Assembly (NCBI GenBank): GCA_022641835.1
Contig: CP048717.1
Coordinates: 186,001-250,000, forward strand
Length of the DNA: 64,000 nucleotides
Direction: 5' to 3'
DNA from: Petasospora fabianii
Lineage: Eukaryota > Ascomycota > Saccharomycetes > Phaffomycetales > Wickerhamomycetaceae
The notes under the pieces: generated by a model
What the model saw: only the letters and a program-made list of their open reading frames with translations
What the model was told of the DNA's origin: nothing
Database searches by the model: none
Made by a program: the position numbers and the translations under genes
Part shown: positions 26,867 to 30,142 of the stretch, piece after piece
Numbering within the stretch: position 1 is the stretch's first letter
Layout of the letters: every line of letters begins with the position of its first letter

Positions 26867-29800
26867 TTAGATCATTAGGAAGAAGAGCAAAACACCGGTA
26901 ATACCTCCAGCACTCAAAACATTAGCTGCTGCTTCATATTGACTAATGGAAACAGAGCTAGAACCCTCAGAAGTGGTAGTGATGGCGGCAGAGAGAAGTG
27001 TGGAGGCGGAAGAGGTCAAAGAAGAATCAGAAATGGTGGAGTATTCAGTGGCAGTCGAGTAGCTGGTGGACTTCATCTCAGCGACATCAGCTGAAGTGGT
27101 AGCACCTGCCTGTAATGTAGACGATGTAGTCTGAGCATTCTTTGTAGCGGAGTTCAAAGCGGTGGAAGCACCAGAAGTCTCAGTGGCACTATCACCAGCT
27201 GGAGTAGCCTTGGTGGAGCTCTTGTGAAGAGTACCAGATGCAAGAGTCACGGTATTTGCAATTGTCTTGGAGTCAGCCTGGGTGGATGGTGCAGACTCAG
27301 CTCTCTTAGTGGAAGCGTCAGCAGAAGAAGCAGTAGCAGTAGCAGTCTGAGCAGCAGTACCAGATTGAGAAGCAGCTGTAGAAGCTTCAGATGGAGTGGC
27401 AGTCTCAGAAGTCAGTGGGCAGAAGGTACTGTACTCAGTAACAACGCCAGAAGAAGTGATTGTTACAACAGTGAGTCCAGTTGTCACGATAGCTGAGGTA
27501 CATGACTCTTCTTCACAAGAGGTCACAGTGATAACAGTGGTTTCAATGAGATCGGTCGTAGTTATGGATGTGGAAAGTGTTGTGAACGCAGAGGTTGAAG
27601 AGGACGACTCAAATTCAGCTGGAACAGATGAAGACAAACCTGGTAAAGAAGAGGAGGACATAGACTCAGAATGAGGACCACCTGCAGAGGAAGTGGACAC
27701 CCCTTCAGAGGAAGACTCGGTGGCAGAGGACTCAACAGAGGTCTCAGTAGAGGAGAACTCAGCAGAGGACTCAGTAGCAGAGGACTCAACAGTGGACTCG
27801 GTGGCAGAGGACTCAGTGGAAGAAGACACAGCAGAGGACTCGGTGGCAGAGGACTCAACAGACGTCTCAGTAGAGGACTCAGTAGAGGAGAACTCAGCAG
27901 AGGACTCAGTGGAAGAAGACACAGCAGAGGACTCGGTGGCAGAGGACTCAACAGTGGACTCAGTAGAGGAGGACTCAACAGAGGACTCAGTGAAAGAGGA
28001 CTCAGCAGTGGACTCAACAGTGGGCTCAGTAGAGGACTCAACAGTGGACTCAGTAGAGGAGAACACAGCAGAGGACTCAGTGGAAGAAGACACAGCAGAG
28101 GACTCGGTGGCAGAGGACTCAACAGAGGTCTGAGTAGAGGAGAACTCAGCAGAGGACTCAGTAGCAGTAGAAGAGGACTCTGTGGAAGAGGACTCAACAG
28201 TGGACTCAGTAGAAGAAGACTCAGTGGAAGACGATCCAACAGAGGCGGATGTAGTAGTACAGGACTCAGTAGTAGACTCAGTAGAAGAGGACTCAACAGT
28301 GGACTCTGTGGAAGAGGACCCAGCAGAGGACTCTGTAGAAGAAGACTCAGTGGAAGACGATCCAACAGAGGTGGATGTAGTAGTACAGGACTCAGTAGTA
28401 GACTCAGTAGAAGAGGACTCAACAGTGGACTCTGTAGAAGAAGACTCAGTGGAAGACGATCCAACAGAGGCGGATGTAGTAGTACAGGACTCAGTAGTAG
28501 ACTCAGTAGAAGAGGACTCAACAGTGGACTTAGTGGCAGAGGACTCAACAGTGGACTCTGTGGAAGAGGAAACAGAAGAGGACTCAGTAGAAGATCCAAC
28601 AGAAGAGGATGTAGTAGAACAGGACTCAGACGAAGATGTTACCTCGGAAAAGGTAGACTCAACTGGAGCAGAGGAAGAGACCTGTGGGGCGGAAGAGGAT
28701 ACTTCTTTGCTAGAAAGCGTTTCAACTGGAACAGAGGAAGACTCAGATGGAACAAATGTAGACTTCTCTTCAGTAGAAGTTGTGGATGAAGCCAAAGAGG
28801 TTGTCTCTGGTGGTGGTGAGGTAACAGAAGTTGACTTGGTTGTAGTCTTTTGGGTGGAGCGGGTTTCGGTACACTGGCACTTGAAAGTAGTCTTGGAAGT
28901 GTAAGTGGATTCGTATGGATTGTAGGTGGTGATCACATCACAGGAGTCTGAAGAAGTACTGTAAGCTTCGAAGCACTTGAGCTCTGATTCTGGCTTGGTG
29001 GAAAAGATAGTAGTGGTGGCTGGCTCGGTGCAGGAAATCTTGTTGGGGGTGTCGAGCTGGGTTTTGGTGTAGCACTCACCCTTGGTTGTGGATGGGACAA
29101 AGTCAGAGACATCGACAAAGCTAGACTCACCGTCATAGTACTTACCAATCAAAACATTACCTTCTTCAGCATCGAAACCCAAGAACAAGTCAGAGAAGAA
29201 GGAGTAACCAAGCTCAAAGGAGTCTCCGGAGACGATATCGCTAAGGGCACAGATGTCATTGGTCTGATCAATGGAGGAGACAAAGTGGGAGAAAGAGAAA
29301 TCATGCTTGAAGTCACCAAAGTCCAAAGTCAAAGCTGAGATACCGGAACATGGGAACACGTAATCACCGTAGGTCTCTTCGTAAGAAGCTCCGAAGTAGT
29401 TCAACAAAGCCTTGTAGACATCGGATGGGACGGTGAGACCAGCCTCGGCACCAGTGTTGAAAGTCAAGGAGTAAGTGTTACCACCAGAGAGGGAGGTACA
29501 TTCAGCAACGAAATCCCAAAGCTTGACTGACCAAGAGTTGGAGTCGATACATGGCAAAGCGATCAAGTCACCTTCAAACTTACCAGTATCCATACCACCA
29601 AAAGTAAATCCACTATCCTCTTGAGAAGCATCACCACAGACAGAGAAAAACTTTCTGTAGATCAAGCCTGCATCTTTCAAGTAGTCAAGGAATCCAGTAG
29701 TTGAGGAGTCAGAGCAGTATGCCAAACCGAGAACGTTGGCATCACCAGAGTCGACCAGGGTATAATCCAAGTCACAGGACTGGGAGCTCTGGCTGTCAAA

Positions 29801-30142
29801 GTAGAAAGTGTCCTGAGCCAGCTCACCAGAGTAAGACCAGCCCCAACCAGTGCTACCTGAGTAGAAGGAGTCCTTGAGAGAGTAGTAATCGGAAGAGGAA
29901 TAGTCGTAAGAGTCAGAAGATGCAAGGGCACAACCAGTGGAGCCTGTGTCCAAGTTACAGTAGACAGACGACTTCTCAGAACCAAAGTAGAAGTCAGTAC
30001 CTGGGCACCAGGAAGAACCAAAGAAACTGGAGCCTCTCTTAACCAAGGATTCCTTGTCTTTGACACTCACATTGACGTTGATATAGGCATCTGCCTTCAT
30101 GGCCAAGGCCAATGCGACGAGGGCCGCATAAGGAAGCTGCAT
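26867..30142 (-). CDS. GPI-anchored yapsin-like protein, second catalytic Asp replaced
   Basis: A 1091-residue secreted protein with an aspartyl-protease (yapsin) fold and a long Ser/Thr stalk. It has a signal peptide (about 1-19), a Kex2-type site LVKR at 33-36 and the first active-site motif D65-T-G-S. Yapsin landmarks FGGMDTGKFEGDLIALP (182-198) and LGYSFFSDLFLGFD (311-324) follow. The second motif, normally DSGT or DTGA, reads FNTGAEAGLTVPSDV: Asn229 (AAC) stands where catalytic Asp is expected. Residues about 430-900 are Ser/Thr/Glu repeats, including three Cys-bearing units with ESCTTTS. The C-terminus is hydrophobic (GGITGVLLFFLMI), typical of a GPI signal. TATATAAG lies at 30218-30225. 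It is probably a cell-wall protein that no longer cuts; a working non-canonical protease cannot be excluded. Confidence 0.85.
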   Translation of the reverse strand: MQLPYAALVALALAMKADAYINVNVSVKDKESLVKRGSSFFGSSWCPGTDFYFGSEKSSVYCNLDTGSTGCALASSDSYDYSSSDYYSLKDSFYSGSTGWGWSYSGELAQDTFYFDSQSSQSCDLDYTLVDSGDANVLGLAYCSDSSTTGFLDYLKDAGLIYRKFFSVCGDASQEDSGFTFGGMDTGKFEGDLIALPCIDSNSWSVKLWDFVAECTSLSGGNTYSLTFNTGAEAGLTVPSDVYKALLNYFGASYEETYGDYVFPCSGISALTLDFGDFKHDFSFSHFVSSIDQTNDICALSDIVSGDSFELGYSFFSDLFLGFDAEEGNVLIGKYYDGESSFVDVSDFVPSTTKGECYTKTQLDTPNKISCTEPATTTIFSTKPESELKCFEAYSTSSDSCDVITTYNPYESTYTSKTTFKCQCTETRSTQKTTTKSTSVTSPPPETTSLASSTTSTEEKSTFVPSESSSVPVETLSSKEVSSSAPQVSSSAPVESTFSEVTSSSESCSTTSSSVGSSTESSSVSSSTESTVESSATKSTVESSSTESTTESCTTTSASVGSSSTESSSTESTVESSSTESTTESCTTTSTSVGSSSTESSSTESSAGSSSTESTVESSSTESTTESCTTTSASVGSSSTESSSTESTVESSSTESSSTATESSAEFSSTQTSVESSATESSAVSSSTESSAVFSSTESTVESSTEPTVESTAESSFTESSVESSSTESTVESSATESSAVSSSTESSAEFSSTESSTETSVESSATESSAVSSSTESSATESTVESSATESSAEFSSTETSVESSATESSSEGVSTSSAGGPHSESMSSSSLPGLSSSVPAEFESSSSTSAFTTLSTSITTTDLIETTVITVTSCEEESCTSAIVTTGLTVVTITSSGVVTEYSTFCPLTSETATPSEASTAASQSGTAAQTATATASSADASTKRAESAPSTQADSKTIANTVTLASGTLHKSSTKATPAGDSATETSGASTALNSATKNAQTTSSTLQAGATTSADVAEMKSTSYSTATEYSTISDSSLTSSASTLLSAAITTTSEGSSSVSISQYEAAANVLSAGGITGVLLFFLMI
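28187..28615 (-). repeat. Tandem repeats in the yapsin-like stalk
   Basis: Repeated coding units that include ESCTTTS and SVGSSS. A near-identical DNA word of about 60 bp (CGGATGTAGTAGTACAGGAC and following) recurs near 28246, 28371 and 28460 at uneven spacing, so unit number has changed by duplication or loss. Expect length polymorphism between strains. Confidence 0.8.

Follow-up and report, generated by a model that had tools for sequence, protein, structure and literature searches.

A yapsin-like protein of Petasospora fabianii with asparagine at the second catalytic position and a flocculin-type stalk

Layout of the gene and its protein

We analysed a 64,000-nucleotide stretch of the genome of the yeast Petasospora fabianii (assembly GCA_022641835.1, contig CP048717.1, positions 186,001 to 250,000; hereafter the window). 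One of its genes encodes a 1091-amino-acid protein that resembles the yapsins, aspartic proteases of the A1 family, and in which asparagine (N229) stands in place of the second of the two catalytic aspartates. The gene is an intact open reading frame from ATG to TAA (26867 to 30142, minus strand; 1091 codons plus stop) with no internal stops and a codon adaptation index (CAI) of 0.694. All parts of the gene described below are on the same strand.

A putative signal peptide takes up approximately residues 1 to 19 (30086 to 30142; probable cleavage site), with a hydrophobic 10-mer at residue 6 (2.65). The propeptide read from the sequence prefix is only about 17 residues long (approximately residues 20 to 36; 30035 to 30085). 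It ends in LVKR, the KR being residues 35 and 36, which we take to be a Kex2-type site. A signal peptide and a KR-ended propeptide, as expected of a yapsin, are therefore both found. The A1 aspartic-protease-like head follows (residues 37 to 351; 29090 to 30034). It contains 10 cysteines, against 2 to 5 in the heads of 11 paralogues from the same genome, and no N-X-S/T sequons. Both features are compatible with a more rigid domain that has taken on a new role, though they do not name a ligand.

The 740 residues after the head are 52% serine and threonine. They begin with a cysteine-rich neck (residues 352 to 430, six cysteines; 28853 to 29089), which had no Pfam match and matched only itself among the loci compared. 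The neck leads into a 430-residue stalk of tandem repeats (residues 431 to 860; 27563 to 28852) composed of 61% serine plus threonine and 15% glutamate. A Flocculin type 3 repeat lies at residues 868 to 911 (27410 to 27541; PF13928, 3.8e-14), and the genome-wide search placed it at the identical position. Such a repeat in a Ser/Thr stalk is one of the features expected of a flocculin-type adhesin. The protein ends with a second Ser/Thr stretch and a C-terminus of the glycosylphosphatidylinositol (GPI) type (residues 913 to 1091; 26870 to 27406), recognised by an omega-type pattern and a hydrophobic 12-mer (2.55). No Pfam match was found in residues 341 to 520 or 960 to 1091. The beginning of the GPI pattern was as quoted in PMC12387857; the attachment signal of yapsins is present here by this pattern, as it is in 10 of the genome's 12 A1 proteins. 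An earlier reading of this DNA, made from its letters alone (the sequence-only reading), had described a Ser/Thr stalk of about 470 residues with a GPI signal. The region after the head is longer and of several parts, and the GPI-type tail, like the signal peptide, was recovered by pattern and hydrophobicity only. From this layout we infer that the protein would be secreted, anchored and glycosylated.

Assignment of the head to the A1 family

Searched on its own, the head matched PF00026 with an E-value of 6.7e-20 (72.2 bits against a cut-off of 19.9) over residues 72 to 331, which places it in the A1 fold; the genome-wide search gave 71.5 bits for the same protein. A Pfam scan of the full-length protein returned no match at all and so missed the A1 head. 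Automatic annotation may therefore overlook proteins built in this way. The claim that the landmarks of a yapsin fold are kept was borne out in part. The FGG motif, the first hydrophobic-hydrophobic-Gly motif (VLG) and the C-lobe cysteine pair are present. The second hydrophobic-hydrophobic-Gly motif reads ELG, and the tryptophan W39 and the flap tyrosine Y75 (pepsin numbering) are gone.

The catalytic site

The codon GAC of D65 (29948 to 29950) opens the motif DTGS, and the codon AAC of N229 (29456 to 29458) opens NTGA. N229 was placed on the column of the second catalytic aspartate by phmmer against Candidapepsin-1 and Rhizopuspepsin, by MAFFT with the 11 paralogues and by a hidden Markov model (HMM) of seven intact paralogues. 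There is no aspartate at residues 217 to 240, and therefore no neighbouring aspartate can slide into the second position, a displacement that would have undone the proposal. For the first position, the Pfam, HMM and phmmer local matches start late or omit the motif (none of the phmmer matches starts before residue 58, and several lie opposite a target stretch beyond the catalytic aspartate), so D65 is identified from the MAFFT alignment together with the pattern of motif and strand. The sequence-only reading had both motifs right, an intact DTGS at D65 and an asparagine in place of the second aspartate.

Active A1 enzymes, yapsins included, carry aspartate in both DT/SG motifs, and here only D65 is present. 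In the passages on Candida glabrata Yps1, both aspartates appear necessary for function (PMC5925793). An A1 fold, a broken dyad and an intact gene together define an A1 pseudoprotease, and this protein has all three. The alignment of N229 by three methods thus makes a loss of protease function well supported. Further changes surround the site: in the MAFFT alignment W39 and T218 are replaced by alanine and S219 by glutamate, and Y75 is replaced by threonine (by glycine if the flap is aligned without gaps, counted by hand; tyrosine is found in neither case). The changes at W39, Y75 and T218 are weaker evidence for lost catalysis, because one paralogue (L015, below) is changed at the same three positions yet keeps both aspartates. 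For the same reason we dropped them as proof of a long-dead enzyme.

A1 proteins in the genome

The genome (12.3 Mb, 16 contigs) contains 12 PF00026 matches, eight of which have D-T/S-G intact in both motifs. In the MAFFT alignment the catalytic motifs were damaged in the remaining four: the 1091-residue protein and three others, whose tails all match the GPI pattern. L017 (C10, 272 kb) has lysine and asparagine in the two aspartate columns, although the second can be aligned in several ways. L018 (C10, 221 kb) keeps both aspartates and has the glycine altered in both motifs, and the motifs of L019 (C3, 525 kb) read DTQ and KTR. Counts of A1 genes can consequently exceed the true number of proteases.

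The A1 tree left six of nine forks open; the deep forks were unsettled and the bootstrap was not settled. The 1091-residue protein had the longest branch (3.53). Approximately unbiased (AU) tests did not reject the four damaged genes as a single clade (p-AU 0.21), nor the grouping of the 1091-residue gene with L019 (0.32) or with L015 (0.48). A common origin of the four is thus neither shown nor rejected. Outside the stalk, the best BLAST match was L015 (C3, 1284 kb), with 28% identity over residues 54 to 362. L015 likewise has a short LVKR propeptide, a long Ser/Thr tail (558 residues) and changes at W39, Y75 and T218. It differs in retaining both aspartates and in a tail that lacks the flocculin repeat. 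Elsewhere in the family, three A1 genes with intact motifs (L011 to L013) adjoin one another on C8 (335 to 342 kb), of which L013 has no GPI-type tail.

Conservation of the head and codon adaptation

Positions were counted as conserved if they were the same in at least six of the seven intact paralogues. This gave 42 positions, nine of the active site and 33 others; the active-site list was fixed in the script ahead of the count, but after the table of paralogue motifs had been seen. The 1091-residue protein keeps five of the nine active-site positions (W39, Y75, D215 and T218 are lost) and 17 of the 33 others. In leave-one-out counts, all seven intact paralogues kept a higher share at the active site than elsewhere: 9/10 against 30/53 in L009, 9/9 against 33/36 in L010, 9/9 against 33/35 in L011, 9/9 against 32/33 in L012, 9/9 against 31/40 in L013, 9/11 against 28/60 in L014, and 8/12 against 22/44 in L016, the lowest active-site conservation of the seven. 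L015 keeps six of the nine active-site positions, L017 two, and L018 and L019 three each. Judged from these alignments, the 1091-residue protein no longer shows the added protection that intact paralogues give their active sites. At the remaining conserved positions it fares much like the distant intact relatives. A stronger erosion of the active site than of the rest of the head was not found (Fisher p 1.0).

CAI was calculated with a reference set of eight chaperonin genes and one ribosomal protein gene. The head reached 0.695 when read in frame, and the shifted frames gave 0.354 and 0.297. Its value is close to that of the Pep4-like gene (0.699) and exceeds those of nine of the 11 other A1 heads. 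This codon usage speaks against a gene decaying into a pseudogene.

The stalk and its distribution

Among the 12 A1 proteins the flocculin repeat was found in two, the 1091-residue protein and L019, both of them among the four with damaged motifs. Searches of the tails of L015, L010, L011, L012, L014, L016, L017 and L018 gave no match to it; L009 and L013 have no tail beyond the protease domain. The chance that both repeats fall on damaged proteins is 0.09 (6 of 66 pairs), so the association is suggestive.

Genome-wide there were 40 matches to the repeat in 22 open frames (frames counted by hand). We scanned ten of these frames, several of which were clipped by the ends of the locus, and recovered the repeat in all ten, with Hpf1_C repeats in two and a partial Phosphoesterase domain in one. 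In the latter frame (L057; C2, 238.9 kb) part of a Phosphoesterase domain (PF04185) lies ahead of the flocculin-type stalk, another head of enzyme type. L019 has at residues 458 to 582 a 125-residue module with no Pfam match in that protein. The module recurs in two stalk proteins with the flocculin repeat (L052 and L058) and, more weakly, in L051, L053 and L057. From these domain arrangements it looks as though a common wall stalk bears differing heads in this genome.

Related proteins in other organisms

The statement of the sequence-only reading that no yeast case had been described was mistaken. C. glabrata Yps7 (CgYps7; PMC5925793, PMC11549443) and Yps2 and Yps5 of Candidozyma auris (PMC12387857) are described, in the passages on them, without recognisable catalytic aspartates. 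For CgYps7 the accounts vary: a figure legend in PMC12387857 gives only the first aspartate as missing, and a passage in PMC11549443 states that the catalytic residues are not known. Its expression reportedly lowers the hyperadherence of a yapsin-less mutant (PMC11549443), and cells that have lost CgYps7 are sensitive to wall stress. A difference from the protein studied here is that the authors regard CgYps7 as a protease; the text passages do not mention a flocculin repeat, and the likeness is one of description. The two C. auris proteins are putative GPI yapsins without the typical catalytic aspartates, again likened by description rather than by sequence, and the family there ranges from 372 to 703 amino acids against 1091 here. 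P. fabianii probably reads CUG as leucine and so would belong to a different clade from C. auris. In ten chaperonin-family genes, 140 residues stand opposite 18 CTG codons; 58 of them are valine, leucine or isoleucine and 21 are serine, threonine or alanine, a pattern nearer the leucine background than the serine one; one CTG stood mostly opposite glycine, and this is not clean proof. The RPB2 protein of this yeast scored 776 bits against 5x4z, an entry from Komagataella, and 772 against S. cerevisiae, a similar closeness to both.

Inactive members of the A1 family occur in animals, among them Bla g 2, Lma-p54 and the pregnancy-associated glycoproteins. To our knowledge these animal proteins have no GPI stalk. 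Flocculins of the Flo1/5/9 type have the Flocculin type 3 repeat, a Ser/Thr stalk and a GPI-type tail. The 1091-residue protein shares all three with them and differs in having an A1 head instead of a known adhesin domain. For an inactive A1 protein that acts at a surface, perhaps by binding, the passages on Lma-p54 of the cockroach cuticle offer a precedent (PMC9541408). Yapsins were present in all compared yeasts save fission yeast, and the passages reporting this are silent on inactive ones (PMC7916363). The combination of a dead A1 head with a flocculin stalk appears to be the new part. Limited literature searches, judged by titles and the starts of abstracts, found no description of it, which weakly supports its absence from print. 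A scan of a viral contig collection found no relatives of the protein; prokaryote genome, phage and plasmid collections were not searched with it.

Interpretation

We consider it somewhat probable that the protein is a catalytically dead, yapsin-like A1 head on a GPI-anchored wall stalk of adhesin type, with a non-enzymatic role in binding or wall structure. A pre-pro-protein would be made and trimmed at LVKR, the long Ser/Thr stalk would be glycosylated, and a GPI remnant would fix the protein to the wall. With the second catalytic aspartate gone and the surrounding residues changed, the head would not cleave peptides. Carried to the surface of the wall by its stalk, the head would most likely bind the wall, a protein ligand or a partner cell in the manner of an adhesin, or else serve as a structural spacer. 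That the protein has no proteolytic activity and, still more, that it works by binding or as wall structure is what we infer from its sequence. An earlier proposal of a protease turned into an adhesin or wall structural protein held for the loss of the protease, which N229 supports well; the second half is plausible and gains support because the tail has a Flocculin type 3 repeat.

Several observations weigh against this interpretation. Equal erosion at the active site and elsewhere also fits relaxed constraint on the whole head. L015 lacks the same three other positions while keeping both aspartates, so that these losses can precede loss of the dyad or occur without it, and the aspartate may have been lost only recently. 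The N-lobe has diverged strongly, the HMM of intact paralogues aligning residues 151 to 332 only, and single-sequence structure prediction gave a mean pLDDT (predicted confidence) of 35.8. PF00026 was the sole Pfam match in the head, and no known ligand-binding adhesin head was found there. CgYps7, without recognisable aspartates, is still handled by its authors as an enzyme, in the passages on it.

Among the other explanations, the one we rate highest, though improbable, is a regulator or decoy of active yapsins, whose dead head would bind substrates or propeptides uncut and limit the shedding of wall proteins. Asp-to-Asn catalytic mutants of aspartic proteases are the classic forms that bind substrate and do not cut it, and the eight A1 proteins with both motifs are likely active enzymes that could be regulated. 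However, the flap tyrosine and W39, which help to hold substrate, are also replaced, and a long stalk of adhesin type suggests outward display rather than regulation. We doubt still more that the protein is an active or partly active protease of altered mechanism, in which another residue serves as the second acid or the asparagine deamidates to aspartate. Histo-aspartic protease of Plasmodium functions with a changed dyad, D65 and its DTGS motif are retained here, and L015 has both aspartates despite its altered W39, Y75 and T218. CgYps7 also complements yapsin phenotypes in the passages describing it (PMC11549443). Such a mechanism has to contend with the lack of any candidate aspartate around N229, which itself occupies the catalytic column.

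Slightly less credible again is a pure stalk protein, with the head a relic or mere folded cap that contributes nothing specific. The length of its branch and the modest retention of other conserved positions (17 of 33) agree with this, but the excess of cysteines and the high codon adaptation suggest a domain that is kept and stabilised. Least probable of all, and in our view very unlikely, is a sequencing error, a strain-specific mutation or an early pseudogene. N229 is known from one genome, and the other active-site changes could predate it, since L015 is altered at the same places with both aspartates in position. Against this are the open frame of 1091 codons with its in-frame codon bias and the damaged motifs in three further family genes; a recent aspartate change or a sequencing error at N229 is unlikely.

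If the protein is indeed a dead head on an adhesin-type stalk, it would illustrate a likely path from wall protease to non-enzymatic surface protein, with two cases bearing an adhesin-type repeat in one genome, and it would bear on the role of yapsins without aspartates such as CgYps7. A broader proposal is that A1 proteases have become the heads of adhesins more than once in this yeast, forming a class of pseudoprotease adhesins in which dead domains (this protein and that at C3, 525 kb) sit on flocculin-type stalks and the old cleft serves as a surface site for binding peptides or proteins. We regard this as speculative and rather unlikely.

Other features of the locus

A TATA-like box (TATATAAG; 30218 to 30225, minus strand) was recognised by eye about 80 bases before the ATG. 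The stalk includes a long tandem array (27714 to 28629) with units of 12, 15 and 27 bases and larger units of, for example, 99, 126 and 171 bases; its length likely varies between strains. Long antisense frames overlie the repeats on the plus strand (27671 to 28789 and 28182 to 28904) and are most likely a by-product of the repeat. Elsewhere in the window, a wall synthesis gene of the Kre9/Knh1 type (PF05390) is located at 56914 to 57801 on the minus strand.
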